DNA of 45,755 nucleotides, taken from positions 1 through 45,755 of the IMG/VR virus record IMGVR_UViG_3300020183_000139, one strand, 5' to 3'. Under the pieces are notes generated by a model. That model had not been told where the DNA came from. It did no database searches and saw only the letters and a program-made list of their open reading frames with translations. Every line of letters begins with the position of its first letter. Position 1 is the first letter of the stretch. The DNA comes from a virus. Below are positions 4,830 to 44,845 of the stretch, one piece after another. The translations under genes were made by a program, and so were the position numbers.

Positions 4830-5222
4830 TCACCTTGAAGACCGCTCTTGAAAAATCCAACAATTATCAGGCATTTGATGATCGTCGATGTACGACAGGG
4901 GAACCCAAACCTTTAGCCTAAGGTAACAGCCGCAAACGTCGCAGGTGCCGGCCGAACCTTCACCCTGAAGAAACATGGCCATGTTGTTGCGGGCCTGTTC
5001 CTGCTCAAGGATTGCCTCTGCGACTGTTTTGGTGATTGACCGCGCATCGGTCGGCTTGTTGTGCAGGCAACGGTTGCAGGTGTCGAGGCGTTGCTGCGCT
5101 AACTGGCGATCAACAGGGACGCCGCCGTCTCCAAGCCATTCGGCAAGAATTCGCGCACCGGCGGCGGTTTGCCGGATCCTATCGACCGCACGTGCGACAG
5201 CCTGAAACCCTTCGTTGAGCAT
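4830..5222 (-). CDS. Small zinc-ribbon-like phage protein
   Basis: 130 residues from the ATG at 5222. The frame is open to 5342, but that part overlaps the upstream gene further and reads poorly. A first pair CNRC at about residue 50 and a second cluster CDVCGC near residue 100, followed by LRLK and a late NCW, match the small phage proteins with a C-x2-C ... C-x2-CGC-x-K ... C-P/W layout. Such proteins probably bind zinc; their role is unknown. It overlaps the upstream gene by 44 bp and lies 6 bp before the portal. Confidence 0.65.
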   Translation of the reverse strand: MLNEGFQAVARAVDRIRQTAAGARILAEWLGDGGVPVDRQLAQQRLDTCNRCLHNKPTDARSITKTVAEAILEQEQARNNMAMFLQGEGSAGTCDVCGCYLRLKVWVPLSYIDDHQMPDNCWIFQERSSR

Positions 5223-5885: not shown

Positions 5886-7658
5886 TTACGAGTAAGTAAG
5901 CGAATGTTGAGCTTCCACAGACCGACGCTTGTCCGACATACGCGTCAGCCACTTGGGCATCTGCCGCTTGACAATACCGACACCCTGTCCGCCTGCAATC
6001 TCAAAACCTGTGCGCCGTGCCATTTCGAGTGCCACGACAAACGAATCCCACAGGTCAGGCGATCGCCCCATGCGCTCCTTGGTTTTCTGCTTTGGCTCCA
6101 CGTCGATCAGTCCAGTGCGGGCGATGCCCCATTCGCGCATCGAGCCTTCCTCGGCTACCTCCCGGGACAAGCGGCGCAGCTGGCGGCTTTCAATCAGCAG
6201 GCGTGACGAGTACCAGAGTGCCGTCACCATCTTGCCGTAGGCTTCCCGCTCGGTCTTCGCATCTCCCTTGCGAACCGGGCGATCAAGCGGCTTGCCGCCA
6301 AACTCGATCGGGACGACCTGCGGGGACCAGAGGCGGGCGAACGCGGACATCAGCGTTCCTCTGCCCGTCGAGTCGAAGCCGACGTTTTCAGGCGGGATGT
6401 TGCGCTGCTTGCAGTAGAGCATGACGTACTCGGCAATCTGCTCCTCGGCCTGCTGGGCTTTGACAGCGGTTACGGGGACGACAACGGGCGCCTCGGCAAA
6501 TGCCAGCACCACCTGCCCGCTTGAGTTTTCGCCGAACTGAAGGTCTGTGATGACGCAACGGTCGCCACCCACGCCTGAGTAGGCGGCGTCGATGCCAATG
6601 ACCCGGGTGATCTTGTCGGCGCGGTTCCAGACTACGTCATCGAACGCCTGATTCTGCTCGCACAGCGACATCGTGACGACGCGCCTAGTGCCACCGTCTC
6701 GAGGCAGAAGCCCCAGATTCATCATCGAGAACTGCAACGAGTCCCGGCCGTAGTAATCGAGGTCTGCCTGAATCTGCTCTGGCGTAATAATGCCTTGGTA
6801 CGGGTTGGTGCCCTTTGGAAACTTTGCGTTCGGTGTGTCGTAGCCGCACAGCTGGACCGCCACACCTCCAAGCGCCCGCGTTTTCCAGGTGCGCGTCTGC
6901 TCGAGGTACTCAAGACCCTCCCACCCGCCGATAGACGAGTGCGGCTCACAAACCACGCCAAGCGCGTCGTTGCGGTCTTTGGGGTTTCCCATGGCGATCA
7001 ACTTGAACTCCGGGTTCTTGCGAAGGTTTGCCACCGAATCGAGAAACCCTCGACCCATCAGCGACGCCTCGTCGGCGATGAGCATGACCCGATCGTTTTT
7101 GAGGCCGACGTAGTTTGACAGACCGACAAAGGTGCCGCCGACCTTGCACGCAACCCCAATAATGCCGTCGCGGAAGTCCTGCGCCTCGGCTTCCTCATCG
7201 GAACTGGTCAAGATAAACCGGCTTTCGATTACGCGTCCCGGAAGCCACTCGCGCTTGGCCTTGGCCTTGTTGTGAAGCTCCTTGATCGAACCCCAGATTC
7301 GCAGCTGAAGACCTTCACGGGTTGTCGATGACATGATGATCGAGGTTCCGGTGGGGTAGATATAGAACGTGCAAAGCCCGTAGGCCGCCGAGTTGTAGGT
7401 TTTGCCCGACGAACCTGGCCCCATGATGCCGACCTCTTGGTTTTCGACGAACGTGCGAATCAGCAGGTCGGACCAGTCATGCCAGTCGAAGTGCGGCCAG
7501 AGGGCCGTCATGGCCTGCCGAAAGTGGTGGTATTTGCCGAGCCCATACCTGACGCCGCCGTGATTGATGTAACCGCCTTTGCGGACCATCTCGGCCTCAA
7601 TCAGGAAGCGGTCTTTTGTACGCCATGGTATGGACAGGTACTCGGCGCTTTCATTCAT
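5886..7658 (-). CDS. Terminase large subunit
   Basis: 590 residues from ATG 7658. The open frame runs 61 codons further, but that stretch overlaps the divergent gene and is not protein-like. The ATPase part has a Walker A at residues 80-87 (GPGSSGKT) and a Walker B-like LIADEA. The C-terminal nuclease part shows VIGIDAAYSG, NVGFDSTGRGT and SPDLWDSFVVALE, which supply the acidic metal-binding residues of the RNase H-like fold. It would cut and pump phage DNA into the head through the portal. It is first in its operon and only 43 bp from the divergent tail gene. No small subunit is recognisable nearby. Confidence 0.93.
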   Translation of the reverse strand: MNESAEYLSIPWRTKDRFLIEAEMVRKGGYINHGGVRYGLGKYHHFRQAMTALWPHFDWHDWSDLLIRTFVENQEVGIMGPGSSGKTYNSAAYGLCTFYIYPTGTSIIMSSTTREGLQLRIWGSIKELHNKAKAKREWLPGRVIESRFILTSSDEEAEAQDFRDGIIGVACKVGGTFVGLSNYVGLKNDRVMLIADEASLMGRGFLDSVANLRKNPEFKLIAMGNPKDRNDALGVVCEPHSSIGGWEGLEYLEQTRTWKTRALGGVAVQLCGYDTPNAKFPKGTNPYQGIITPEQIQADLDYYGRDSLQFSMMNLGLLPRDGGTRRVVTMSLCEQNQAFDDVVWNRADKITRVIGIDAAYSGVGGDRCVITDLQFGENSSGQVVLAFAEAPVVVPVTAVKAQQAEEQIAEYVMLYCKQRNIPPENVGFDSTGRGTLMSAFARLWSPQVVPIEFGGKPLDRPVRKGDAKTEREAYGKMVTALWYSSRLLIESRQLRRLSREVAEEGSMREWGIARTGLIDVEPKQKTKERMGRSPDLWDSFVVALEMARRTGFEIAGGQGVGIVKRQMPKWLTRMSDKRRSVEAQHSLTYS

Positions 7659-7701
7659 CTTGCGGGAATGCTGGGATAGGTTTTTAATCGGTTCAAGCGC
7701 T

Positions 7702-9741
7702 ATGGTCGCCGAAAAAAATCGTATTGTAGACGGCCTGCTCACCGCTGAGGGCGGGGTTGACAGCGGATTTTCGCCGTCCTTGATCCAACCTAACCAGCTG
7801 GCCTGGGCGGTCAACACGACGGTGCGCGGCGGGTTTCCCAAGGCACGGCCAGGGATCTGGGTAAAGAACTTGACCTTCCCGGACCCATCGGTCGTCTACA
7901 ACAACGGATACTACAACGCGACTGTCCAACAGGCGTTTTTGCAGGGATTTTTTCAAGGCTGCGGGACCTACATCACCGATGCGGGAGACCCATATTTGTT
8001 TGCGTCAATAGGCGGCAAGGTCTTTCAGATCGACATCAACAATGGCTTTGCGGTGTCCGACTTGACTCCGATAGGTATCACGTTTCAGGTGTTGACTCGC
8101 GGCCGCGTTTCCAATGTAGCGACCTACGTTACCAACGGTCCCCACGGCCTTTCGGTTGGCATGGTGGTTCGTTTGGTTGAACCGCCCGGTGCGTTTTTTC
8201 CGGCCGGGTTCTTTGGTGATTTTGTTGTCGAGACCGTCCCAAGTCCAACGACCTTCACCACGTTCTCCCCAGGCATTGATGCAGGGCCGTTGCTTGGGCC
8301 ACCGTTCAACTGCTACCAGCTGTTGACCAACAACCCGCAGGCTACGCACGTTTTTTTTCAACAGGCTGAAAACTGGCTAATCATTCAGGATCAGCAGTCG
8401 CCTCCGTTTCTTTACAACGGATCAGCGTTGCGCCGGGCAACGAATGAAGAGGTTCCCGTTGGCGGCCCTATGTGCTACGGCAAGGGCAGACTTTGGGTAG
8501 CCAATGGATCTGAGTACTTTGGTGGAGATCTTGTCTACAGCGACCTAGCTTATGGCCGCAACAGCGTCATTCGATTCACCGAGAACACGTTCCTCAATGA
8601 GGGTGGCGCCTTTGCCGTCTCTAACGGACCGATTACCGGGCTAGCGTTTGCAGCAAACCTTGATACCGCGCTTGGAGACGGGGACCTGCTGGTCTTTACG
8701 CCCACCGCGACCTACGCGTTTAACGCGCCTGTTGATCGCGACGTGTGGAAAGACCTTGACTATCCGATCCAGCGGTTCGCCCTGTTAAACTTCGGCTCGT
8801 TCAACCACGAATCCATCGTGCCAGTGAACGGCGACCTGTTCTTTCGCGCTCAAGATGGCATCCGATCCCTGATTTACGCCCGGCGGGACTTTACCGAGTT
8901 CGGTAACACCCCGATCAGCAGGCAGGTCGTGCGTGCCTTGGCCTACGACACGGAATACTACCTTACGGCCGCGTCTGCCGTGAACTTCGACAACCGGATG
9001 CTAATGACCATCCAGCCGCGCAAGGTCAACAACCGTGGCATTGTCCACAGCGGCATGGTGGTTATGGACTTTGATCTCGTTTCCGGAATGGGTCGCAAAA
9101 TCCCGCCGGCATGGGAGGGCGTCTGGACCGGCGTAGACGTGTTCCAGATGGTAACGATTCGCGTTCGGCGCACGGAACAGTGTTTTGTGTTTGGCCTCAA
9201 TCAAGGCAACATCGGCCTGTATGAAGTCACTAAATACGGCCAGTTCGACTTTGACGGGTTTGATGATGCCCCGATTGACTGGACCATTGAAACCCGATCG
9301 CTGACGTTTGCCGAGCCCGCCAACAAGAAGCGCCTAGTGAGCGCGGAGCAGTGGTATGACCAAGTAATGGGCAACATCGAATCCAAGGTCTATTTTAAGG
9401 CAAACGAAAGCGAGTGCTGGCAGCCATGGGCAGAGTTTAAGGACTGCGCGAAGTACCGAAACTGCGAGCCCGGGGAAATTTCCTGCCCGCCGGCGGTGAT
9501 CAGCTGCCAAGAGGTCAAATACTACCAGCCGCCCGCCCGGTCCCGCATCGCGCTTCCGCAGCCTCCGGACAAGTGCGACGTGCAGACCGGAGGGTTCACC
9601 CGAGATGGTTATGAGTTCCAACTCCGCTACGTCAACACGGGCAGGTTTCGCCTCAAGCGTGTGGCGATGGTTGCTCAACGCCTTCAAGAGGATCTTTACG
9701 GGGACCTCAGTCGCGTCGCCTGCCCGCTACTCTCAGCCTGA
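7702..9741 (+). CDS. Tail hub or stabilisation-type protein with one FCCH-like repeat
   Basis: 679 residues from ATG 7702; an upstream extension to 7579 overlaps the terminase start. It opens with a segment typical of podovirus tail proteins (LIQPNQLAWAVNTTVRGGFP) and continues as beta-rich sequence with repeated short strands, fitting a large propeller-like tail protein. Residues about 131-194 carry a beta module (NVATYVTNGPHGLSVG ... VPSPTTFTTFSPG) related to the repeats in the next gene. The C-terminal part is Cys-rich (ECW...DCAKYRNCEPGEISC). First gene of the tail operon. A virion tail protein is likely; the exact position is not shown. Confidence 0.65.
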   Translation: MVAEKNRIVDGLLTAEGGVDSGFSPSLIQPNQLAWAVNTTVRGGFPKARPGIWVKNLTFPDPSVVYNNGYYNATVQQAFLQGFFQGCGTYITDAGDPYLFASIGGKVFQIDINNGFAVSDLTPIGITFQVLTRGRVSNVATYVTNGPHGLSVGMVVRLVEPPGAFFPAGFFGDFVVETVPSPTTFTTFSPGIDAGPLLGPPFNCYQLLTNNPQATHVFFQQAENWLIIQDQQSPPFLYNGSALRRATNEEVPVGGPMCYGKGRLWVANGSEYFGGDLVYSDLAYGRNSVIRFTENTFLNEGGAFAVSNGPITGLAFAANLDTALGDGDLLVFTPTATYAFNAPVDRDVWKDLDYPIQRFALLNFGSFNHESIVPVNGDLFFRAQDGIRSLIYARRDFTEFGNTPISRQVVRALAYDTEYYLTAASAVNFDNRMLMTIQPRKVNNRGIVHSGMVVMDFDLVSGMGRKIPPAWEGVWTGVDVFQMVTIRVRRTEQCFVFGLNQGNIGLYEVTKYGQFDFDGFDDAPIDWTIETRSLTFAEPANKKRLVSAEQWYDQVMGNIESKVYFKANESECWQPWAEFKDCAKYRNCEPGEISCPPAVISCQEVKYYQPPARSRIALPQPPDKCDVQTGGFTRDGYEFQLRYVNTGRFRLKRVAMVAQRLQEDLYGDLSRVACPLLSA

Positions 9742-9742
9742 T

Positions 9743-12700
9743 ATGCCATCATCCAACCCAGTCGATTACGGCGCTGATCCCTGCGGGTTTAGAAACAGCG
9801 CGTGGGCGATTAACGAGTGCTTGCAGGCCGCAAAACGCTGCGACTTCCCGGAGGGCACGTTCCTGCTTGGATCGAGCCCAGGGGCGAAGATCATTAATCG
9901 GTTTCGATTCGGCGATATTGCAACCTTTACGACCTCAACCCCACACGGGTTGGTTGTTGGCGAAAAAATTACGTTGTACGGATTCACCGACTCGACGTTT
10001 AACGGTACAGGGCCACTCCAGTTTGGATTTACCGTTACGGCAACGCCAACCCCGACTACGTTTGCCGCCACGGTGCCGGGACCAAACTCCGCTCTGGTCG
10101 TCGAAGATGGCTGGATCAACCTGATTGGCGGCGGTTACACGTCGTCGTTGATAATGGGATTTCCGCCGTTCAACGGAGTCATCAACAACATCGTGTTTAC
10201 TGGCAAGGGGATCGGCAAAACGATCGTTAAGTTCGCGGATCGAGCATCGACCAAGAGAGGAGACACCTTTGGCTTCAACATCCAGATGCTTAAGGTGACC
10301 GGCGATTATCCTGGATCCGGAACGGCTGTCGGGTCGCCGGGATCTTATCCAGGAGTTCCAGTTTTCGGACTCAACTGCAAAAACACGGTGATCGAGGGGA
10401 TCACCTTCGATGGCAATTACACGAACAACTCCATCGCTGACGAAAAAATCACTGCGGTTGAACGCGTCAACGGAATCAACACTTATTACACCGAGGTGCC
10501 ACTGTACGATCCCGGCATTCAATTTACTCAATTTTACGCATTGCCTCCTCCATCGTACACTCCTCCCGTTATTCCGGCACCATACACCAATGTTAGCGCC
10601 TACAACCAGTACATCAGTAACGTAATTACTACAGGCACGTCAAACGATCTTACATTTGGGGGTTTCGGTCAAATTGTCAATTTGACTGCTCAGAGTTTTC
10701 AAAGGGATTTGCGGGTGGTGTTGATCGAAGGGCGAATCAATCAATTTGGGTATGCTATCTACACGAAGCACCCGCAGTGGAACTATGGTTTTACAGTAAA
10801 CGACACCATCACCGTCACTGGGTTCACAAACCCAGATTTAAATGGAACATTCATTGTTGCAGGATTTGTTCCCGTAACACTTGAGGCATATTGTCTAAAC
10901 GCTGGAACAGCGACCGTGTTTTCGATGCTAGGGTACGAACGGTTGACCAACGTGGCAACCTACGACACCTCGCTGGTGCACCCGTTTGCACCTGGAGACA
11001 CGGTCGTCATTTTAGGGTTTGCGGACGCTACGCTAAACGGTACGTTCGTGATTACAAGCATTCCATCACCAAATCAGTTCAACTGTGCAAACGTAGGCCC
11101 GAATACCGGAGTCGTCGGGGACAGCGGGTCTGTCTACAAGGTAATTTCCGAAAACGCCCGTGCATGGACCGCCCCAGACGTGCCGCTGACACCGCAGACC
11201 AAGGCGGGGGTCAATTCGCTGATCACGGTGGCCGGAATCAATCACTCTGGCGAAAACGGCCTATTCCAAAACCTTCAGTTCTACGATTTTGGAGTTGGAA
11301 TTGCAGACGCGGAGACGTTCCTACTCAAATCGTTTCTGTCCATGGATGTCGCGCCGATGACCAAGGGCGCTACGGTCAAAAACGTCGATTTCGGGTATCA
11401 AGGCAGGAACTTTGTCCAGAGCGTCCTGTACCCCGGCCAGGCCGAGTCCAACACTCAGTGCGCGATCGGCGGGTATTCCGCGTTGCAGAACCCAATCAAC
11501 GTCGTTTCAAGGTCGGCGGGCATTGCCACCTTTACCTGCGTCATGCAGCACACGTTGCGGGTTGGGGATGTGGCAAGCGTTTCGATGACCTACGTTTCTT
11601 TTGTACAACGAAACGCCAGCATTGCTACATACACCACAGCGGGAAGGCACTTTGTTAACACCGGCGAACAAGTCACAATCAGTGGAATTACGTTTGATGG
11701 GTCCTTCAACGGAACATTTGTTGTCTTAGCAATTATCGACGACTTCAATTTTACCGTCTCTCAAGTTTTGCCAAACGTCCCAAATACGTCTGTCAGCAAT
11801 TTTCCGCTTGTTTACGCTAAATCAGCAATAGTTTCAGTGCCAGACAACAAGCGTTTTACAGTTGCCGCACCCGGCCCCGACATTCTCCCCGGCCTCTACC
11901 TTGACGGCAACGTCATTATGCTGCGCGCCCAGCGCATTTTCGCCAGCGGCTGCGTATTTGAGAAAAATCGTATTACTGGCGGATCGAATGTCATCAACCA
12001 GCAAAGTCCAGTAACGGCAATAACCGTTCGAGACACCGACGGCGCGGAGATCTGCGACAACAACTTCGATAATTTTACAGGCACCTGCTTCTACGTTGAT
12101 TCGTTCTATCATTACCGGACACACATTCACCGCAATTCATGCTACAACATTTCGGCGTTTGTTGCGCTGGTTGTTCAGGACTGGTACAGGTTGACATCTG
12201 ATCAGCTTTTTTCGGTCAACACGGCCGCGCACAAATCAATGTTGATTGAGAACAACGATGTGCTGCTGACCGGACCCAACTCTTGGTTTTACCAGACTGC
12301 GTTTGCACCCCTCGACGCTCCTTTCCTGATCAACAACCACGACGTGGATCGGTCTGAATGGTACTACCCGACGGACTACCGAGTGCCGATTTCAACTTCC
12401 ACGCGGGCTGCTGGCATTTCCACTCACACGACCGCTTCGGCGCATGAGCTTCAGGCAGGCATGACGGTCTCTGTCGTTAGCGTTCCAGACGGCACATTCA
12501 ATGGCGTTTTCACGGTCACCAGCACGCCATCGCCGACGACGTTCACCGTGGCTAACGCCGGGACATCAACGACGATACTCGGCGGCGCCAACTCCTGCGT
12601 TGGAATCAATGAACCCATTCAGTTCCCGTGGGAGGTTCGCCCGATTGGGTTCCAACGCACCGCTGGCGTGGCCACTTACACAACCAACAAGGCGCACCAT

Positions 12701-13084
12701 CTCCAGTTGAACTGGCACGCCACGGTCGAGGGCTTCAGCGATTCTAGCTTCAACGACGAGATCATTGTGACAGGCACGCCGACCGCGACGACGTTTACCT
12801 GCGCGAGCCCGGGACCTGACGTTGCGTTCACGTCGGAGGTCGGCAACTTCTTTCGGTACGTGGACGACATCCAGATTGGATGCAACACCGTGCGCCGCTT
12901 GAGCGGCAACGGACTGGTTGTCAACAATGGGGGCACCTTCGGCGGATTGTTTTTGCAGGGGCGCCCAACGCGCTGCGTTGCACCGCTAGACCAATTTTTC
13001 TATTTTGATTGTCCTGAGGGCTGTTTGGGTCTTGAATGCGACCCAGGCCCGTGTAAGCCAAACGACTACGCCTACCGCATCTAG
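9743..13084 (+). CDS. Tailspike: beta-helix protein with inserted and nested FCCH-like repeats
   Basis: 1113 residues from ATG 9743, two bases after the previous stop. The N-terminus (VDYGADPCGFRNSAWAINEC ... FPEGTFLLG) matches the start of pectate-lyase-like beta-helix tailspikes. The middle has helix-like rungs (NTVIEGITFDGN, NTVRRLSGNGLVV). About seven copies of a small beta module interrupt the helix, near residues 53-122, 332-390, 398-465, 589-700 (one copy inside another), 884-950 and 969-1030. The C-terminus is Cys-rich (CPEGCLGLECDPGPC). Expected role: binding, perhaps cutting, a surface polysaccharide. The catalytic residues cannot be assigned by eye. Confidence 0.75.
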   Translation: MPSSNPVDYGADPCGFRNSAWAINECLQAAKRCDFPEGTFLLGSSPGAKIINRFRFGDIATFTTSTPHGLVVGEKITLYGFTDSTFNGTGPLQFGFTVTATPTPTTFAATVPGPNSALVVEDGWINLIGGGYTSSLIMGFPPFNGVINNIVFTGKGIGKTIVKFADRASTKRGDTFGFNIQMLKVTGDYPGSGTAVGSPGSYPGVPVFGLNCKNTVIEGITFDGNYTNNSIADEKITAVERVNGINTYYTEVPLYDPGIQFTQFYALPPPSYTPPVIPAPYTNVSAYNQYISNVITTGTSNDLTFGGFGQIVNLTAQSFQRDLRVVLIEGRINQFGYAIYTKHPQWNYGFTVNDTITVTGFTNPDLNGTFIVAGFVPVTLEAYCLNAGTATVFSMLGYERLTNVATYDTSLVHPFAPGDTVVILGFADATLNGTFVITSIPSPNQFNCANVGPNTGVVGDSGSVYKVISENARAWTAPDVPLTPQTKAGVNSLITVAGINHSGENGLFQNLQFYDFGVGIADAETFLLKSFLSMDVAPMTKGATVKNVDFGYQGRNFVQSVLYPGQAESNTQCAIGGYSALQNPINVVSRSAGIATFTCVMQHTLRVGDVASVSMTYVSFVQRNASIATYTTAGRHFVNTGEQVTISGITFDGSFNGTFVVLAIIDDFNFTVSQVLPNVPNTSVSNFPLVYAKSAIVSVPDNKRFTVAAPGPDILPGLYLDGNVIMLRAQRIFASGCVFEKNRITGGSNVINQQSPVTAITVRDTDGAEICDNNFDNFTGTCFYVDSFYHYRTHIHRNSCYNISAFVALVVQDWYRLTSDQLFSVNTAAHKSMLIENNDVLLTGPNSWFYQTAFAPLDAPFLINNHDVDRSEWYYPTDYRVPISTSTRAAGISTHTTASAHELQAGMTVSVVSVPDGTFNGVFTVTSTPSPTTFTVANAGTSTTILGGANSCVGINEPIQFPWEVRPIGFQRTAGVATYTTNKAHHLQLNWHATVEGFSDSSFNDEIIVTGTPTATTFTCASPGPDVAFTSEVGNFFRYVDDIQIGCNTVRRLSGNGLVVNNGGTFGGLFLQGRPTRCVAPLDQFFYFDCPEGCLGLECDPGPCKPNDYAYRI

Positions 13085-17795: not shown

Positions 17796-20700
17796 ATGCC
17801 TATCGAGATCGACTTCGGCCGGGAACTGGGGGCTGTCGCTTTTCCAGACGATGTCACTGAGGAGCAGGCGCAGCAGTACGCCCGCGAGAACTACCAAGCG
17901 ATCCGCCAAAAACTGCTTCAGCAGCGGAGGGATGAACTCGCTGCTGAGACCGAACGCGAGGAGAGGACCAAGTTTCAGCTGGGGCAATACGGGGCGCTGG
18001 AAACGGTTGGAGGGCAGCTTTACGAAGCGCCTCGCGCCGCTGGCAGAATGCTTGGATCAGCACTCAAAGGCGCGGCCAACGTCATGGAGTGGCTACAGCC
18101 TCCGGATGTCAATCCCGAGACCGGAATCCCGGTCTGGGTGAACCCTGAAACCGGGGTTCCGATTCAAAAACCGGCTCCAGTTCCAGTTGAGCAGACCTCG
18201 ATTTTTCAAACGGGCCAGCAACTGACTGAAATTGCTGAAGGGTTACCGTCCATCCCAGGGGCCGCAGAAACCATTCCCGGACAAGTCATGGGTGGCGTTG
18301 GATCTGTTGCGGGCTTAGTGCCAGCTGCTCTTGTCGGGGGACCGTTTGCAGCCGGAGGGGTTTACGGTCTGTCGGCAGGACAAGAGGCATTGGAAGATGC
18401 GCGTCGAACCATCAATAAGCGCATCGCGGAACGATTGGCGATCGGGGATTTTGCCGGTGCAGACGAGTTGCGCTCTCAGTTGCCAGAAATTGAAGCCACG
18501 GCGTTTGCTCTGACCGCGCCAATCGGTGCTGTCACCGAGGGCGCACTCGGTCTGGCCGGCCGCGTTGGACGTATTGGGCGCGGTCGCCCAACCATCGGCG
18601 GCATAGGGTCAAAGATTGCGGAACGCATGATACCAAAGGCTGCCAGCGTCCGCACGCAGAACATGATCCGTGGCGGCATCGAAGGCGTCGCGACTGAGGG
18701 GCTCCAAGAATCGCTTGAGCAAACGCTTGGAAACATGGCGGCAAAAGTCACCTATGACCCCGAGCGCGGAGTCATGGATGGCGTCGCCCAAGCCGGATTT
18801 ATTGGAGCCGCTACCGGCGGTTTTGTCGGCGGAACGGTTGGTTCTCGGAAGAATCTCGGCGCTGCCAACGCGGTCGCCGAGGCCACAGGCGCGGACCCGT
18901 CCAACCCGCTGCCCCGTGCGACGGCGACGTTGGCCGGCATCCAAGACGGCCCCGAACCCGCCGGCCCGATTGACATTGAGCCTGAGATCACGCCGGAAGA
19001 GGTGTTGCAAAGGTCGCGGGAGCTTGGGATTCCGATGCCGGATGAGGTGCCAACCACCCCGACCCCTGCTCCTGCACCTACGCCGGCCACGCCGGCCGCC
19101 GCCGCTCCCACGCCGGTGCCTGCCCCTGCCCCTGTCCCTGCACCCACGCCGCCCACTCCTGCCGTCGCTGTCGCACCCGGAGAACTCGAGGCCGACGAGC
19201 AGGCCGAACTCGATTCGCTGATCGAGAAGGAGGCTGCTGGCACGCTCACCGAGGACGACAGCATCACGTTGTCCGCTTACCGTGCCCGACTGGGCATACC
19301 TACAGAAATATCAACCCCCACACCCAGTGCCATTCAAGAACAAGGCGCAGATGAAGGCGTGCTTCGCCGAGAAGAACCGCAACCCGAAGTCCAAGTGGAA
19401 CTGCCGGAAGTGGCTGAAGGAGAGCGGCCTCCCGAAGGAGCCGGGGCCGAAGCCCAAGTCACCCCGGAAGAAGTCCAGCAGGTAAAGGCGGAGGTGGTGC
19501 CGGAGGCTGCCCCGGCGCCTGCAACCCCAGCTGTTCAATCCGCGAAGCTCCCCAAGGATCTCGCTGGCGCCAAGCCGCGCTACAACATCTCGATGGATGC
19601 CTATCTGCCGAGGTTTGACAGCGACTTCGATCTGGCCGCGTTCATTGTTACACAGAAGGTTCCATCAAAGCGCGACGCTGATTACCTCAAGTGGGCTGTT
19701 GAGCAATCAGGGATGACTCCCGAGCAAGTCCGTCAACACGGGCTGAAGGTTCGCGCTGAACTAAAGCAACTAGCATCGCAGACAAAGGGGGGCACCTCGC
19801 AAAAGCCGGCCGCGTTGACTGTGTCGGCGGTGGCGATCACGACACCGGAGGTGAAGGTTACAGCAACTCCTGCTCCAGCCCCAGCGCCTGCGCCTGCGCC
19901 CACTCTAGCCCCCACCCCCGCAGCCGACCCTAACGAGAAGCTCGCCGCGTTTATCGAAGATGTAGACGGCGCGATCACGAATCTTGAATCGCCGGCCAAG
20001 CTGCGTGCGATGGTCAAGAAGGCGGTTGCCGCTGGCCACATAACAGCCAGAGACGCTGCTGAGATCGCCAGGGTTCAGAAGTCCATGGGAAGCGCCGAGG
20101 ACACGACCGACGCGTTTGGTGAGTTTGCGAGCTACCTGAACAGAGAGTTGGAGAAGCGGCGGAAGGCGCCGGCGGCGGCTGCGGCGGCTGCGGCTGCGCC
20201 TGCCAAACTTATTTCCACCGCACCGGCCACAGAGCCTGCCCCTGCCCAAGCGCGAGAGGTCCAAACCCCTCCAGCCGAAAAGCAGGCCACCGAACCGCTG
20301 GCTCCGAAAGCCCAGAAACAATTCCTGCTTGCACAGATCGACGAGGCTATCGCCGCTGCGCCCGAAGAGGCGACCTCGGAGACCATTCGCATCACCGTTC
20401 CCGGAGATGGCGAGTTTACGCTGCTCAACTACAAGGCTGCGTTGACTCGCTTCAAGGATCTCGCCAAGCAGTTTCCGGTAAGCCCACTTGGTGGCGAACC
20501 AAAAATGCGGACGGAAGCCAAGCAGGCTCTGCGTCTTGGAACGCTGACGCTGAAAAACGCCCTGAAGTCTGGCGCTGAAATGGCGGCAGACCCATCCCAA
20601 CGCAAAGACGCACCTATTACGGCGATTTTTTCGGACGGCAATCGGATTGTCGCAACTGATGGCAAGACGTTGCTCCAGATAAACGTGAACGCCGGCGGCA

Positions 20701-23700
20701 CAACCGCCAAGCCGATCACGGTCGATGAAACCGGAAAACCGAAGGTCTTCGACACCAAGTACCCAAACGTTGATCAAGTCATTCCGCAAACCACGACCAT
20801 CGTTTCGCCGAAGATCAACACCGAGCGGCTCTTTACGGTGCTGACGCAGGCCAATCAGGCGGCGTTGGATCCTGATTCCCGCGATCCGGTCCGCGACGCA
20901 ACCGCGCAGGTGGTCCTTAACCGCGACGGTTCCATCGGCGTGTTTTCAGAAGTACAAGGCAAGACAAGCTACTCACATAACGTGCGGCGCGGGGCCAAGG
21001 TGCTGACGGGCTACAACATTCGTCGTTTTATTGACATCGTGCAGGCAATGCGACGCGTCGGCGTTGCCGAGTTCGATCTTGCGGTCAGCGACGAGTCGGG
21101 GCGTTCGTTGAAAACTGATGCAGGCGTGCTGCTGGCACCTGGAGTCAAGGGCCTGATAATGCCGGTGCGCCTCGACAAGTACGAGGTGCCAACGTGGGCG
21201 ATGGAGCCGGATACGGGTTTTGCTGTCTCCGCCCAATCCGCCATCGACACCATCGACCGGATCAACAAGGGCCTGTCAGAAAACCAGTATTCCGATCCGT
21301 TGTTTCTGACGCCGCTGGCAAAGCTCGCGTTGCAGATCGCCAAGCGTTTGATCCAAGCCGGCGTCGCGGTTGAGCAGGCAATCCGTCAGGCGATTGCAGA
21401 GGCTCGCCAACAGCTACCGAACGACACGGCAAATGATCAGGAGCTTGAGGCGCGGTTGGTGGAAGACGCGCAGTACACACAAGCTGTCGCCGCTGGTGAC
21501 ATGGAGACGGCCCAGAGGATGGTCGATGAGGCGGCGAAGGCGGCTGGGTATGACGCCCGTCCATATTACCACGGAACCAACGCCGTGTGGACTGAGTACG
21601 AAGACGTTGGTGCTACGACAACAGGCGGAAGAATGTTGCGTCGAGACGTTCCAGGTGCGGCTCCCATTTTCGTTTCGAGCGACCCGGATGTAGCAGAGAG
21701 CTATGGCGAAAACGTCAAGAAGCTCTACATCAACTTTGGTGCTCCCGGAAAACAGGTCACCATTAACGCTAATGGAAAGACCTGGAGATCGGTTTATGAC
21801 CAAGTCGCGAACGCGCTCAACGAAGGCGCTCAATCGGTCTTGGTCAAAAATGTGATTGATTCGACATTTCAGGCAGACCTCGTTCCGTCTGATGTTGTAT
21901 CTGTAATTTACCCGGAACAAATCAAATCCGCCGACCCAGTCACCCGCGACGACGCCGGCAACGTCATTCCGCTGTCTCGCAGATTCCAATCCAGCACCGC
22001 CGACATCCGTGGCACCCAACCCGACTCCGTCGAAGCCATCCTCCAGAAGGTCATCGCCGCCACCGACACCAAGGGCAAAGCCTTCGAGGCCGTCACGGCG
22101 CTTTCCAACGCGGTTCTGAATCAGGCCGCCCGCATCGCTCTGGCGATCTACAAAAAAACCAAGTCTTGGCTGGCTGCTCGCGATGCTGGCATGGACTACA
22201 TCAAGTCCCACATCCAGCTGCAAAACGAGCCGGAGACGGCCGCGAACTTCGAGGAGTTCATCAAGGGTGTTCCCAATCAGGAGATCCCTGCCGGCGCCCC
22301 GGCGTTGCCGCAGCCTCCAAGCCCCGCCGAAATCGTTCCCTCGCGAGGTCTGTTCATTGGCGACATCGAACGCGACACTGACGAGAACTGGGCGGCAGAG
22401 GCCAAGAAGTGGGTGGACTTCTTCAAGGGCAACTTGGAGCGCGCATTTCAGGTTACGTTGACCGCAGACATCGACAACGCGTTTCGCGAGTACGTCCTCT
22501 CCGAACTGCTCCAACGCAGCGAACTAGAGGTTGCCCGCGCCAAGAACGACGTGGACCTGCTGCGCGCCCTTAATCTACAGGAGCGCATCGCCAACGCCGA
22601 AGTCAAGCTGGGTGCTGTCACCGGCAAGGCCATGGCCGCCCGGCGACTTTCGCAGGAGCGGTACTGGTGGCTTCAGCCTGCGCTCATCTACCGAAACCTG
22701 ATCCGCAAGCGCCAAGCCGAGGCCATACCGTTCCCGCAATTCGTCTCCCAGCAGGTTCGCCAATGGCTTCTCCAGTCAGGCCGGGAAGCCGTTGATCAGA
22801 TGCGCGAAACCATGAAGCGGGCAGACGCGGTGTTTGCCCGCGAGTTCCGCAAGATCAAGCAGGTCCCGGGCGCTCCCGGAGAAGGCCCGATTGAAATCCG
22901 GTGGTCTGAGATACTGACCAAAGCCATCGACACCCAAGGCAGCATCCGCCAGAAGATGCTTCAGATCATCCTGGCCGACCCCCGCCTGCGAAACCTGAGC
23001 CCTGCTGGCATCGCGGAGATCACCAATCTGCTGACGACGGCGTGGGAACAAAAGCGTAACCAGATTTTTCGGGCGGAGTTCCGCAAGAAGGTGCCCCTGC
23101 CGACGGTCAAGGCGGACAACCGTGAAAAACTCTTCCGCGCTCTTCCGCGCATTCTAAGGTACTCGAACATCGCCCGCGCTACGCCGGGGGCGTTTTCGAT
23201 CCTCGACGGACCGGACACCGCTCTGCTGTGGGAGCAGGCGTTCCGCGATGCCGTGGCGCCGGAGTTCGGTGTAGCCGAACTCAACGGGGTGACGGCCCGC
23301 AAGATCACCGAGTTGGCCAAGGTCGCGCAGTCCCGCCAAGGCATCAATCGCAACGAGATCATCCAGCAGATGTTCCGCCTTATGCAGCGCGAAGGCGGAG
23401 TCCGGTTTTGGGACGCGCTGCGCGATTATTGGTACGCCGCCGTGCTATCAGGCACGCGCACCCAAGTAGACAACGCGCTGAACATTCTCAACGGCGCACT
23501 GAACACGGCCATGTTTGCTGGTATGGCCAAGGGCGATGCAGGCCTTGTCACCTACAGTGCGCTCAAGGGCCTCGCGGAAGGCGTTCGCGACTTCTGGCCG
23601 ATGCTTTGGAAGGGCGAGCTTTACCGCTCTGTCAACTTTAACCCGGACCAACCGGGCAACGCGCTCGAGGGCCTCGGTCAATCGCGCAAGCTGTTTGCCC

Positions 23701-25190
23701 GTGGCATCAGCCAGATGAAGTACGTAAGCCGCCTAATCCAGGCGCTTGATCACGTCACCGCCCTTATGTCCGACGCCACTGCGAAGGCCTACACCCTAAG
23801 CAAGGAATACGATTCCAATGCCGCCAGAAAATACCTGATGCCGGATGCTGGCATAGTTGCGGCCGCCCGCGATCAGGCAATCGCCGAAGGGACGCGGCCG
23901 GAGTTGGTCAACAAGCGGACCCGCGAAATCATTGAGTCCAAGATTCCTACCGAGGTGCTGCTGACTGCCAAGGAGATCCGCGAGTCGGTGACATTTACCG
24001 AGGTGCCGCAGGGGATCATGGGGGCCGTCTATGAGGCTCTTAACGCCGGCGCTCGCAAATTCCCCGCGCTGAAATTCGTCACCGGAACCAACTTCGTGCG
24101 CTTCGCCGCCAACTACACGAACGAGCTTCTGAACTACGCGGCGCCGGTGGCACTGTGGCGCTGGTTTCAATCCGCGCCTGGAAAATCCGAAGGCCCGCTT
24201 GGGCTGACCTACTCCCAGAGCCGCCGCGATCTGCTTTTGGCCAAGGCAGCCATCGGCACGGCTCTCGGCGCGTTCGCAGCTGCGTTGTTCCTCGGCGACG
24301 ATGACAAGGAGGAGGATCGCAACATCGACATCACCGGGTCGTTCAAGTCCCTCGATCCTAATAAGCGCAAGCAGCTGCTAGCGGAAGGGCGCCAGCCGTA
24401 CTCGATCCGGTTCGGCAACACTTATGTGTCCTACCGACAACTGGGTTTTGGCGGACTGCTTGGCGCCGTTGGTGAACTGCGCGATCGCCAGTTGTTTGCT
24501 CCGGAGAAGTGGTCCAAGGAATCCATCATCGACAAGATGCTTGATGCAGCTGCTGCCGGGCTTTTGATCGTCAAGGATTCGTCGGCGATATCCGGCCTGA
24601 CAGAGTTCCTTGGGTTTGCCAACGCGTACAAGTACGACACCAACGAAGTCATCGAAAAAGCGGTGCCGCGTTACGTAGCGCGTCTGGCGGGATCTTTGAT
24701 TCCCAACATCCTGAAGGAGGTCGATGCTTGGTCCGATCCGTCGATCTTCAAGGCCGAGGGCGGTAATCTGGGTTACGAATACTTCCTTCAGCAGGTGCCC
24801 TATGCTCGCCGTGATATTGGGCCGGGTCCGATCCTGAACGTTTTGGGCGAGCCGGCGGTCGTCGAACGCTATCCGTGGAGCCGCTGGGTCAAGGAACGCC
24901 GCGAGGATCTAGCTTGGGACACGCTCGGCCGCCTTGCCAGTCGCGGCATATTTATGCCGACACCAGCCATCACCGTAAAGGTCAACGACAATGGCACGCG
25001 CCGCGAGCTTACCCGAGACGAGGCCTACGCCTACCAACGCACAGTTGGCCAGGGTTACCGCAAGTTCATCGAGCAGAACTCCAAGCGCCTGCTGGCATTG
25101 CAGCCCGAGCAGGCTGCTGAATTCATCGACAAAAACGCTGATCGAATCCGCCGCGACGCCCGTGAAAAACTTCAAAGGGGAGTGCGGTAG
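17796..25190 (+). CDS. Giant polyvalent protein: sliding-clamp-like and ADP-ribosyltransferase-like regions, large helical C-terminus
   Basis: 2464 residues. Layout: N-terminal virion-type segment; Gly/Ala hydrophobic stretch about 163-195; Pro/Ala linkers at about 420-465 and 690-710; a sliding-clamp-like region at about 905-1125 (FSDGNRIVATDGKTLLQI near 940; closing GLIMPVRLDK near 1119); an ADP-ribosyltransferase-like region at about 1250-1395 (YYHGT at 1257-1261, IFVSSDPDVAESYG from 1291, PEQIKSA around 1373-1379); then about 1000 helical residues resembling the C-terminal domain of other large polyvalent phage proteins, with a hydrophobic segment at about 2145-2166. Such proteins are packaged and injected, carrying effector domains that act early in the cell. 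It ends the tail operon. Domain calls are by eye. Confidence 0.75.
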   Translation: MPIEIDFGRELGAVAFPDDVTEEQAQQYARENYQAIRQKLLQQRRDELAAETEREERTKFQLGQYGALETVGGQLYEAPRAAGRMLGSALKGAANVMEWLQPPDVNPETGIPVWVNPETGVPIQKPAPVPVEQTSIFQTGQQLTEIAEGLPSIPGAAETIPGQVMGGVGSVAGLVPAALVGGPFAAGGVYGLSAGQEALEDARRTINKRIAERLAIGDFAGADELRSQLPEIEATAFALTAPIGAVTEGALGLAGRVGRIGRGRPTIGGIGSKIAERMIPKAASVRTQNMIRGGIEGVATEGLQESLEQTLGNMAAKVTYDPERGVMDGVAQAGFIGAATGGFVGGTVGSRKNLGAANAVAEATGADPSNPLPRATATLAGIQDGPEPAGPIDIEPEITPEEVLQRSRELGIPMPDEVPTTPTPAPAPTPATPAAAAPTPVPAPAPVPAPTPPTPAVAVAPGELEADEQAELDSLIEKEAAGTLTEDDSITLSAYRARLGIPTEISTPTPSAIQEQGADEGVLRREEPQPEVQVELPEVAEGERPPEGAGAEAQVTPEEVQQVKAEVVPEAAPAPATPAVQSAKLPKDLAGAKPRYNISMDAYLPRFDSDFDLAAFIVTQKVPSKRDADYLKWAVEQSGMTPEQVRQHGLKVRAELKQLASQTKGGTSQKPAALTVSAVAITTPEVKVTATPAPAPAPAPAPTLAPTPAADPNEKLAAFIEDVDGAITNLESPAKLRAMVKKAVAAGHITARDAAEIARVQKSMGSAEDTTDAFGEFASYLNRELEKRRKAPAAAAAAAAAPAKLISTAPATEPAPAQAREVQTPPAEKQATEPLAPKAQKQFLLAQIDEAIAAAPEEATSETIRITVPGDGEFTLLNYKAALTRFKDLAKQFPVSPLGGEPKMRTEAKQALRLGTLTLKNALKSGAEMAADPSQRKDAPITAIFSDGNRIVATDGKTLLQINVNAGGTTAKPITVDETGKPKVFDTKYPNVDQVIPQTTTIVSPKINTERLFTVLTQANQAALDPDSRDPVRDATAQVVLNRDGSIGVFSEVQGKTSYSHNVRRGAKVLTGYNIRRFIDIVQAMRRVGVAEFDLAVSDESGRSLKTDAGVLLAPGVKGLIMPVRLDKYEVPTWAMEPDTGFAVSAQSAIDTIDRINKGLSENQYSDPLFLTPLAKLALQIAKRLIQAGVAVEQAIRQAIAEARQQLPNDTANDQELEARLVEDAQYTQAVAAGDMETAQRMVDEAAKAAGYDARPYYHGTNAVWTEYEDVGATTTGGRMLRRDVPGAAPIFVSSDPDVAESYGENVKKLYINFGAPGKQVTINANGKTWRSVYDQVANALNEGAQSVLVKNVIDSTFQADLVPSDVVSVIYPEQIKSADPVTRDDAGNVIPLSRRFQSSTADIRGTQPDSVEAILQKVIAATDTKGKAFEAVTALSNAVLNQAARIALAIYKKTKSWLAARDAGMDYIKSHIQLQNEPETAANFEEFIKGVPNQEIPAGAPALPQPPSPAEIVPSRGLFIGDIERDTDENWAAEAKKWVDFFKGNLERAFQVTLTADIDNAFREYVLSELLQRSELEVARAKNDVDLLRALNLQERIANAEVKLGAVTGKAMAARRLSQERYWWLQPALIYRNLIRKRQAEAIPFPQFVSQQVRQWLLQSGREAVDQMRETMKRADAVFAREFRKIKQVPGAPGEGPIEIRWSEILTKAIDTQGSIRQKMLQIILADPRLRNLSPAGIAEITNLLTTAWEQKRNQIFRAEFRKKVPLPTVKADNREKLFRALPRILRYSNIARATPGAFSILDGPDTALLWEQAFRDAVAPEFGVAELNGVTARKITELAKVAQSRQGINRNEIIQQMFRLMQREGGVRFWDALRDYWYAAVLSGTRTQVDNALNILNGALNTAMFAGMAKGDAGLVTYSALKGLAEGVRDFWPMLWKGELYRSVNFNPDQPGNALEGLGQSRKLFARGISQMKYVSRLIQALDHVTALMSDATAKAYTLSKEYDSNAARKYLMPDAGIVAAARDQAIAEGTRPELVNKRTREIIESKIPTEVLLTAKEIRESVTFTEVPQGIMGAVYEALNAGARKFPALKFVTGTNFVRFAANYTNELLNYAAPVALWRWFQSAPGKSEGPLGLTYSQSRRDLLLAKAAIGTALGAFAAALFLGDDDKEEDRNIDITGSFKSLDPNKRKQLLAEGRQPYSIRFGNTYVSYRQLGFGGLLGAVGELRDRQLFAPEKWSKESIIDKMLDAAAAGLLIVKDSSAISGLTEFLGFANAYKYDTNEVIEKAVPRYVARLAGSLIPNILKEVDAWSDPSIFKAEGGNLGYEYFLQQVPYARRDIGPGPILNVLGEPAVVERYPWSRWVKERREDLAWDTLGRLASRGIFMPTPAITVKVNDNGTRRELTRDEAYAYQRTVGQGYRKFIEQNSKRLLALQPEQAAEFIDKNADRIRRDAREKLQRGVR

Positions 25191-25231: not shown

Positions 25232-26179
25232 ATGAGCAACCTCCAAGTCACCGTTCAATCAAACCCATCCCAACCTCTCAGCGCCTTCTCCTCGGAGCAC
25301 GCGTTCGTCTCAGTGCAGCGCATGGCCAAGGCCCTGTGCTCCAGCACGCTCGTCCCGGACAGCTACCGGGGCGAGGCCAACCTCGGCAACTGCATCATCG
25401 CCCTGGAACTCAGCCAGCGCATCGGCGCCTCGGTCATGGCCGTGATGCAGTCCATGGTCCCCATCCACGGCAAGCCTACGTGGTCTGCCGCGTTTCTGAT
25501 TGCCACCGTCAACAGCTGCGGCCGGTTCTCCCCCATGCGATTCCGCTGGGTGGGCAAGGAAGGCACCGACGACTGGGGATGCCGCGCCTTCGCTGTCGAG
25601 CGCGAGGGGAACCTTGAACTGGTCGGCGCCTTGGTGACGATCGGCATGGCCAAGGCCGAGGGCTGGTACTCCAAGAACGGTTCCAAGTGGAAGACCATGC
25701 CGGAGCAGATGCTCCAGTACCGCGCCGCTGCGTTTTGGACCCGCGCCTACGCGCCCGAGATCGCCTTGGGTATGCACACCGCCGAAGAAATCCAAGACAC
25801 GCCACAGGCCCAAGAGGTCGTTCGGCCGACGGTCGTGGACGTGACCCCAACGCCGCCTGAGCCCAAGCCCCGCAGAAAGAAGCCGGAGCCTGAGCCTGAG
25901 CCGGCACCAGTCGCGGTTGTTGAGCCCGCCCCCGCTCCCGCCCCGGAGCCCACACCCGCACCGGAGCCCGCCCCGGCCGAGGACACCGTCGATTCCACCC
26001 TTGCCCAGATCGGGATCACCTACGCGCAGCTGAAAAAGCTCGCCACCGATCTTGAGTGGTGGACCGATGCCGACAGCTACCCGACCACTCAGGATCTTCC
26101 CCCGGAGATCCAGCAGTGGGTCATCCGAAACAAGCGTGGCATCGCTCGGGCGGTGGCGAAGGCCGGAGGTGCGTTGTGA
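25232..26179 (+). CDS. recT: RecT-family single-strand annealing protein
   Basis: 315 residues. The core (about 20-195) shows the RecT pattern: LCSSTLVPDSYRG, NLGNCIIALELSQRIGASVM, VPIHGKPTWSAAFLIATVN, AKAEGWYSKNGSKWKTMPEQ, then RAAAFWTRAYAPEIALGMHT. A long Pro/Glu/Ala linker (about 200-250) leads to a small C-terminal helical domain. It would anneal complementary single strands during recombination or repair, with the RecE-like nuclease next door. First gene of the operon; its TGA overlaps the GTG of the next gene, and GGAGG at 26165-26169 serves that gene. Confidence 0.92.
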   Translation: MSNLQVTVQSNPSQPLSAFSSEHAFVSVQRMAKALCSSTLVPDSYRGEANLGNCIIALELSQRIGASVMAVMQSMVPIHGKPTWSAAFLIATVNSCGRFSPMRFRWVGKEGTDDWGCRAFAVEREGNLELVGALVTIGMAKAEGWYSKNGSKWKTMPEQMLQYRAAAFWTRAYAPEIALGMHTAEEIQDTPQAQEVVRPTVVDVTPTPPEPKPRRKKPEPEPEPAPVAVVEPAPAPAPEPTPAPEPAPAEDTVDSTLAQIGITYAQLKKLATDLEWWTDADSYPTTQDLPPEIQQWVIRNKRGIARAVAKAGGAL

Positions 26180-43126: not shown

Positions 43127-44845
43127 ATGTCTACCCCATCAATTCAAACCCTAAGAAATGATGCACAGCAGGTGCTCAACCTGGACTCTATATCTGCGGT
43201 CCGGTCAGTAGTTGCCGCAACGCTGGCCAACGCCAACGCTGGCACTCCGCTCAATCCAAATCTTACGACGCAGCAGTTGTGGAATGAGTTTTATCAAATC
43301 GCCACGCAGCCAAAATCTGATATCGAGTCGATCATCGCCAACCAGCTGATGAAGTTTGCGTTTTCGCCGCCAGCTCCAGGCGGATCGAGCGCAAATCAAC
43401 AGGTGATATTCAACGACGCTGGAGTGCTGGCAGGAGATCCAGACTTCTTGTGGAATAAAACCACCAACCTCCTGACAGTAGCAGGTTCCGCCACCATCAC
43501 CGGCGACCTGACCGTTGATACCAGCACCCTGAAGGTCGATTCGGCGAACAATCGGGTGGGTATTGGGACGACGAGTCCGACTGTGCCTTTGGATGTCGTT
43601 GGGTCTGGCGATGGAGAATTGCGACTTCGTGCCGGTTCAGACACCTCTTTGATATTGTCTGAAACAACCGCCAACAAAAATTGGAAGATCAAACCCAGTT
43701 CTGGGGATTTGTACTTCCAGTATTCAGCCACCGGTTACAATACCGGCTACTCTTCATTGATGTCGCTGACCACATCCGGCAACCTCGGCCTAGGGGTTAC
43801 GCCGAGTGCGTGGGGTGGGAGTTACAAGGCATTCCAAATTGCGAACACATCCCGGTCACTTGCTGCAACAGGAGCAGGATCAGGAGATTTAACGCTTGCT
43901 TTTAATGCTGTTTATGACGCTACCGATTCACGGTGGGAATACACCGCAACAGGTGACAAAGCCGGACGCTACTCTCAAACAGGCGCTGGCGACCACGTTT
44001 GGTACAACACAAATACAGCCGGCACCGCTGGCAACCCCATCGCCTTCACGCAGGCGATGACGCTGGATGCGAGTGGGCGGTTGGGTATTGGAACCGTTTC
44101 TCCGGGTGAGCCATTGACTGTGATTGGCGGTGGACCAACAAGTTCAACCGTCAACTTCTCTGGCGGTGTCGGTGGTTTTGATAACGCCACAATCGCTTCC
44201 GATAACGACCTCGTTTTTCAAGTTGACGCTAATAACAATGTCGGAAATCGATCATTTGGTTGGAGATATGGCGGTAAAGGCTACAGCGACGGAACTTTTT
44301 TGATGAAGCTGGATTCGAGTGGGAATTTGTTGGTGGGTGTTACCTCTGCCAACGCCAACGGCGGCGTTCTCCAGCTCAAGTCCGGCATCACCTTCCCCGC
44401 CACTCAAGTCGCTTCAACCGACGCCAACACGCTGGACGATTACGAGGAGGGGACTTGGACGCCAGTTGTCGCTGATGCAGCTTCTGGCGGGAATACTGGA
44501 ACCTGCACCGTCAGCAGCGCAAAGTACGTCAAAATCGGCAGATTGGTTTCCGTTCAATGTGATATCCGCGCAGTCAACACTACCGGAATGACTGCTGGAA
44601 ACACCTTTTTTATAAGAAATTTTCCGTTTACTGCTCAACAGGGTGGTAACGGAAACTTCTACACTTACAGAGTTGGAAGGAATGCTGCCACCGTGAGTTC
44701 TTCCGCATTCGTACCAGATAATGCATCTTCGGTTGTATTTTTCCTGTATTCAACCAATAGCGCGACAACAGATAATACTATACTTGTTTCAAATATAGTT
44801 TCAGGAACTTCTGAAATAATTCTATCTGTAACATACTTTGTCTAA
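43127..44845 (+). CDS. Tail fibre or receptor-binding protein
   Basis: 572 residues. A helical N-terminus (about 1-75) leads to a long repetitive beta region with recurrent patterns (RVGIGTTSPTVPLDV, RLGIGTVSPGEPLTV, SGNLGLGVTPSAWG), the familiar VGIGT-SP repeats of phage fibres. TLDDYEEGTWTPVV then opens a beta-rich tip. It would form a trimeric fibre that recognises the host surface. A second fibre besides the tailspike. Confidence 0.85.
   Translation: MSTPSIQTLRNDAQQVLNLDSISAVRSVVAATLANANAGTPLNPNLTTQQLWNEFYQIATQPKSDIESIIANQLMKFAFSPPAPGGSSANQQVIFNDAGVLAGDPDFLWNKTTNLLTVAGSATITGDLTVDTSTLKVDSANNRVGIGTTSPTVPLDVVGSGDGELRLRAGSDTSLILSETTANKNWKIKPSSGDLYFQYSATGYNTGYSSLMSLTTSGNLGLGVTPSAWGGSYKAFQIANTSRSLAATGAGSGDLTLAFNAVYDATDSRWEYTATGDKAGRYSQTGAGDHVWYNTNTAGTAGNPIAFTQAMTLDASGRLGIGTVSPGEPLTVIGGGPTSSTVNFSGGVGGFDNATIASDNDLVFQVDANNNVGNRSFGWRYGGKGYSDGTFLMKLDSSGNLLVGVTSANANGGVLQLKSGITFPATQVASTDANTLDDYEEGTWTPVVADAASGGNTGTCTVSSAKYVKIGRLVSVQCDIRAVNTTGMTAGNTFFIRNFPFTAQQGGNGNFYTYRVGRNAATVSSSAFVPDNASSVVFFLYSTNSATTDNTILVSNIVSGTSEIILSVTYFV

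Follow-up and report, generated by a model that had tools for sequence, protein, structure and literature searches.

A spike protein with one module nested in another

An uncultivated phage encodes a spike protein with about eight copies of a small barrel-type module, one of which is nested in another. The gene lies in a window of 45,755 nt (IMG/VR record IMGVR_UViG_3300020183_000139, positions 1 to 45,755), in which an open frame on the plus strand at 9743–13084 encodes 1,113 amino acids; residues are numbered from the ATG at 9743, and all modules described below are on the same strand. The explanation that we favour, to which we assign a probability of about two in three as a whole, is that barrel modules are borne on a scaffold, that a c4 module came to be nested in c4, and that the resulting lobes recombine and contact glycans.

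The copies were placed by hand, and each was scored with a profile built from the remaining copies against 1,000 shuffles of the same residues. These leave-one-out profiles recovered every copy tested with 23–70 bits, and the best of the 1,000 shuffles gave 7–14 bits. The modules are c1 (residues 50–118, 9890–10096; 57.9 bits versus 13.6 for the best shuffle), c2 (residues ~327–392, 10721–10918; 23.0 versus 10.7), c3 (residues 395–460, 10925–11122; 65.8 versus 10.7), the split copy c4 with its inner copy c4i, c5 (residues 884–946, 12392–12580; 69.0 versus 11.5) and c6 (residues 966–1030, 12638–12832; 70.1 versus 12.2). All seven repeats listed in the initial annotation, which was made from the DNA letters, are among them; it had overlooked an eighth, c1b (residues ~238–326, 10454–10720), a degenerate copy with an expanded b3–b4 loop that was located by profile matches and alignment. 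The N-terminal half of c1b is matched by profiles in many relatives, and its C-terminal half is recognizable by eye in divergent ones. Iterated profiles built from the window and its relatives returned the same copies, partial matches to c1b and one copy in the protein encoded upstream. The insertion in c1b is long and proline-rich, and its b3–b4 loop corresponds to the one occupied by the inner copy in c4.

The split copy had been proposed at 11508–11880; we find it at 11489–11893, an agreement to within a few residues. It comprises an N-terminal half of the outer copy (residues 583–615, 11489–11587, predicted strands b1–b3), the complete inner copy c4i (residues 616–686, 11588–11800, predicted strands b1–b6; 45.9 bits versus 11.1) and a C-terminal half of the outer copy (residues 689–717, 11807–11893, predicted strands b4–b5), the two outer halves being assigned from profiles, homologues and AF2.

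Predicted structure of the nested region

We used AF2 with 33 aligned relatives to model 11489–11914 (pLDDT 83.2, pTM 0.75). The predicted strand order is outer b1–b3, a complete inner b1–b6 and then outer b4–b5, with the outer strands at model positions 6–9, 12–16, 28–33, 107–119 and 122–126 and the inner strands at 36–42, 45–50, 61–65, 75–82, 87–91 and 97–101. Structure prediction had been proposed as a check on nesting, with a single domain as the outcome that would speak against it; the model instead gives the inner unit its own complete strand set, flanked by the outer halves. The long strand 107–119 is predicted to run opposite the stretch from 28 to 42, which suggests a two-stranded stalk. 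Strand order, together with the scale of the fold matches described below, points to two separate barrels. The AF2 model of the full-length spike is reliable over the modules only, with pLDDT below 50 for 578 residues.

There is almost no spacer between the copies (model strands 28–33 and 36–42), as would be expected if the region were one compact composite domain that resembles two modules in sequence only. We give this reading very little credence, because an unbroken outer copy occurs by itself in natural homologues, the inner copy has all six strands of its own, and each copy scores separately as a module.

Homologous spikes with an empty site

Homologous spikes were found at 54 viral loci in a first scan and at more in a second, all on metagenomic contigs, giving a set of 61 unique sequences that includes the spike of the window, or 53 once near-copies were removed. 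The inner copy is present in the same loop in 24 of the 53, and in the other 29 it is missing as a unit while the outer copy is contiguous and intact. These empty sites read GDVVxVxxFxxPTFNGxLTVISTPD, without the inner copy. The initial annotation had preferred module insertion to simple tandem duplication, and the natural empty-site homologues with an intact outer copy bear it out. Tandem duplication in a shifted register is rejected for the same reason, as both outer halves remain contiguous in these homologues.

The arrangement of an N-terminal half, a complete copy and a C-terminal half was not clearly seen in the other module-bearing proteins that we inspected (loci L136–L140, L147 and L148), which have plain or half-unit arrays. 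The tail proteins of L147 and L148 carry the same module by profile, arranged head-to-tail and without a split copy; six tandem modules are present in the proteins at L147 2–1801 and L148 3258–5609, and three in the next tail protein. In Microbacterium phage Pumpernickel (L138, 22829–28795 for gp95 and gp96), gp95 ends in a run of N-terminal half-modules of ~36 aa each, and the gene after it, gp96, encodes several C-terminal half-modules of ~42 aa, so that the halves seem to amplify separately. Three cyanophage loci (L139 at 17127–37925, L137 and L140) encode giant structural proteins of about 6,000–7,000 aa with a few copies of the module.

Origin of the inner copy

For 14 of the 16 distinct inner copies, the best match outside the inner copies is an outer c4 copy. 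In a tree of 89 module sequences over 61 columns, a single branch (69/80) separates ten inner copies from the rest, and they lie within a group containing every outer c4 copy (95/77), next to the outer copy of a single relative, L126 (85/94); the support for the inner clade is modest, given an alignment of 61 columns. By sequence, the inner copy thus has the outer copy as its closest relative, and its grouping inside the c4 group indicates that c4 probably received a module of its own type. We favour one such insertion followed by exchange.

The empty state could also be derived, with a filled ancestor and repeated loss of the inner copy. Parsimony on an unrooted tree does not separate gain from loss, and secondary losses within the filled clade are likely. 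Nevertheless, the two most divergent clades comprise 13 spikes, all of them empty and with an intact loop (the root here is a midpoint root, so that depth is not proven), and the inner copies make up a single group that falls within that of the outer copies. A general history of loss is therefore improbable.

Modules vary and probably move between close relatives

To explain the presence of the inner copy, the core tree of the 53 spikes requires 13 or more changes, which is not a count of independent events because recombination may have affected that tree as well. The c3 position, which holds zero, one or two copies in homologous spikes, requires at least eight. Spikes with 98–99% identical cores differ in whether the inner copy is present. 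L028 and L016 have 99.3% identical core proteins; at the DNA level, identity is 100% across most of residues 286–600, breaks down at about 601–720 and recovers to 98–100% from 721. The same pattern is seen in L002, which is filled, and L017, which is empty (4967–5185), a pair with 98.9% identical cores.

Change is concentrated in the modules. Among the 62 pairs whose cores are 96% or more identical, and with equal-sized core windows as the reference, identity fell below 85% in 63% of pairs for c4, 47% for c5 and 31% for c1, as against 0–2% for the core windows. Unlike c1, c4 and c5, c6 is conserved between close relatives. Module cassettes have most likely been exchanged by homologous recombination across the conserved scaffold, as judged from these identity patterns.

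Breaks between nearly identical flanks are also where assemblers can misjoin, and the filled and empty versions could in principle be chimeras of co-occurring strains, so that some swaps might be mimicked. However, identical c4 DNA recurs in different datasets in both states, filled in L002/L003/L022 and empty in L040/L041/L050 and in L019/L029/L047, and misjoins produce neither a nested copy that is in frame nor an empty loop that is intact. An assembly artefact thus merits scarcely any credence.

Alternatively, the inner copy may be neutral, or have a structural role only, as an insert in a permissive surface loop, spread by hitch-hiking recombination and adding length or stability with host recognition unaltered. 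The b3–b4 loop is expanded in c1 and c1b too, so this site tolerates insertions, and the endosialidase barrel has been reported to be largely permissive to mutation (PMC12632334). On the other hand, between close relatives several modules differ much more than the core does, as diversifying pressure or frequent import would explain better than neglect, and c6, which has the same fold, is conserved. We consider a neutral insert unlikely, if still a serious alternative to a cassette that alters recognition.

Relationship to known barrel domains

A fold search of the PDB with the predicted model returned E1 enzymes (UBA6, UBA1) or phage endosialidases as nearly all of the first 50 matches, at E-values from 1.1e-3 upwards and TMq of 0.31–0.47, as expected if one of the two barrels of the query was matched. 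UBA6 and UBA1 chains came top (probability 1.00, E about 1e-3, TMq 0.36–0.41 for the best four), and the endosialidase structures 4hiz, 1v0e and 3ju4 were within the top 12 (probability 1.00). A search of viral models gave 49 matches at E-values no worse than 0.001, among them endosialidases and many tail, fibre and baseplate proteins of phages; one match aligned over 78 columns at 1.9 Å, and most of the query-spanning matches were at about 10 Å.

Whole-spike searches of Pfam, NCBIfam and the PDB gave no matches, nor did tblastn of the spike against cultured phage records, and the c4 region used alone as the query gave weak module-level matches only. With profiles, the PDB matches were endosialidases, the best being 4hiz (6.8e-4), and covered model positions 16/17–57 of 61. 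The endosialidase barrel family End_beta_barrel (PF12195) weakly matched 5 of 20 modules (best 2e-4) and 3 of 26 spikes (best 5.3e-4). The FCCH family (PF16190) weakly matched 5 of 26 spikes at E-values up to 0.5 (best 2.9e-4); its best score, 16.8 bits in one of six records and none in the window, was below the gathering cut-off of 29.5 bits. The E1 adenylation-domain context of FCCH was not found, the spike having no match to an E1 model or to that of any other family.

The FCCH-like resemblance suggested in the initial annotation is thus upheld by predicted fold, with E1 enzymes among the top matches, and not by sequence, where PF16190 stays below its cut-off. By profile, the best-matching solved structure is an endosialidase beta-barrel rather than FCCH. 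The module looks like the endosialidase and FCCH barrels, and we claim no formal family membership. A literature search for FCCH in phages found nothing relevant, which, at partial coverage, is weak evidence of absence.

The module is alike in fold to the FCCH of ubiquitin-activating enzyme E1 (UBA1, UBA6), with weak profile matches, but differs in scoring below the curated cut-off, in lacking the E1 context and in occurring in a phage virion protein. Endosialidases have one barrel in a beta-propeller enzyme. The phage endosialidase barrel (K1F 1v0e/3ju4, phi92 4hiz) is likewise an accessory barrel in a phage tailspike, but the present spike is not a propeller and has about eight barrels, one of them nested and polymorphic.

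Genomic context

The spike gene directly follows an open frame at 7702–9741 on the plus strand, encoding a virion-type protein of about 680 aa that is nozzle- or neck-like by position only, and a terminase-like gene lies at 5886–7841 on the opposite strand. This upstream protein contains one module copy (8089–8283, plus strand; leave-one-out score 41.7 bits versus 9.4). Homologous spikes are also preceded by a protein of similar size with one module, and the module copy in the upstream protein lies on its own branch of the module tree (100/100).

A RecT-like annealing protein is encoded at 25232–26179 of the window; this is compatible with homologous exchange but proves nothing. Far from the spike, 43127–44845 encodes a second possible tail fibre-type protein with a weak tail fiber match (phrog_9942, 1e-6). 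A 2,464-aa open reading frame at 17796–25190 has a weak match to internal virion proteins and a sub-threshold match to ART-PolyVal.

Scaffold and proposed function

The N terminus of the spike resembles those of two proteins that match Beta_helix, with which it has a DYGAD segment in common; together with the motif style of the core, this leads us to infer a beta-helix scaffold. The spike itself has no beta-helix family match in Pfam or the PDB. The two proteins (L134 and L135), which are 42–44% identical to spike residues 5–42, are of the GLAA-B type (PF23764/PF13229), with a barrel model match inside a beta-helix protein, and are cellular, secreted-type proteins. In one of them (L134, 5893–10128), the GLAA-B barrel II match reads HPGDKVAFF...LYTVASV, like the core of the module, and shared ancestry is possible.

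We propose that about eight endosialidase-barrel- or FCCH-like modules project from a scaffold that is probably a parallel beta-helix, and that c4 acquired an additional barrel in the loop joining strands 3 and 4. This barrel probably came from a different c4 allele, so that the domain would be nested in its own kind. Both ends of the loop would have been extended into the apparent two-stranded stalk, leaving the outer barrel whole and carrying the inner barrel outward. A c4 cassette, consisting of the inner barrel and the outer C-terminal half, would then have moved between related phages by recombination across near-identical flanking scaffold, as would c1, c3 and c5. The outcome would be spike lobes that can be swapped and extended and that most likely touch host surface glycans. 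In the K1F endosialidase tailspike, one of the three polysialic acid sites lies in the barrel, whose loops were host-discrimination hotspots in a deep mutational scan (PMC12632334); by analogy, the modules of the present spike probably touch host glycans.

Discussion

Mosaic receptor-binding proteins that arose as protein fragments were shuffled have been described in phages, with ongoing domain exchange in tail proteins (PMC10684548). That account does not use the word 'nested'; the unit exchanged here differs in being a domain within its own kind. Our literature search found no paper on nested domain insertion in tailspikes, which, at partial coverage, is weak evidence of absence. For annotation, methods that assume tandem units will miscount nested pairs.

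Domain insertion is usually regarded as a finished, ancient event. In these spikes, the filled and empty states coexist in close relatives: some have an uninterrupted receiving loop, and in others that loop is filled by a copy from the same family as the recipient domain. How domains become nested, step by step, and how nesting affects host recognition can therefore be tested directly. At somewhat less than even odds, a receptor-contact domain may be diversifying by self-insertion here, with the nested barrel serving as a host-range cassette that can be detached, recombines, and is found in some but not all of a set of otherwise near-identical viruses. More generally, the existence of close relatives with or without just the inner copy suggests that these phages use the nesting and exchange of modules to remodel the surface that faces the host.
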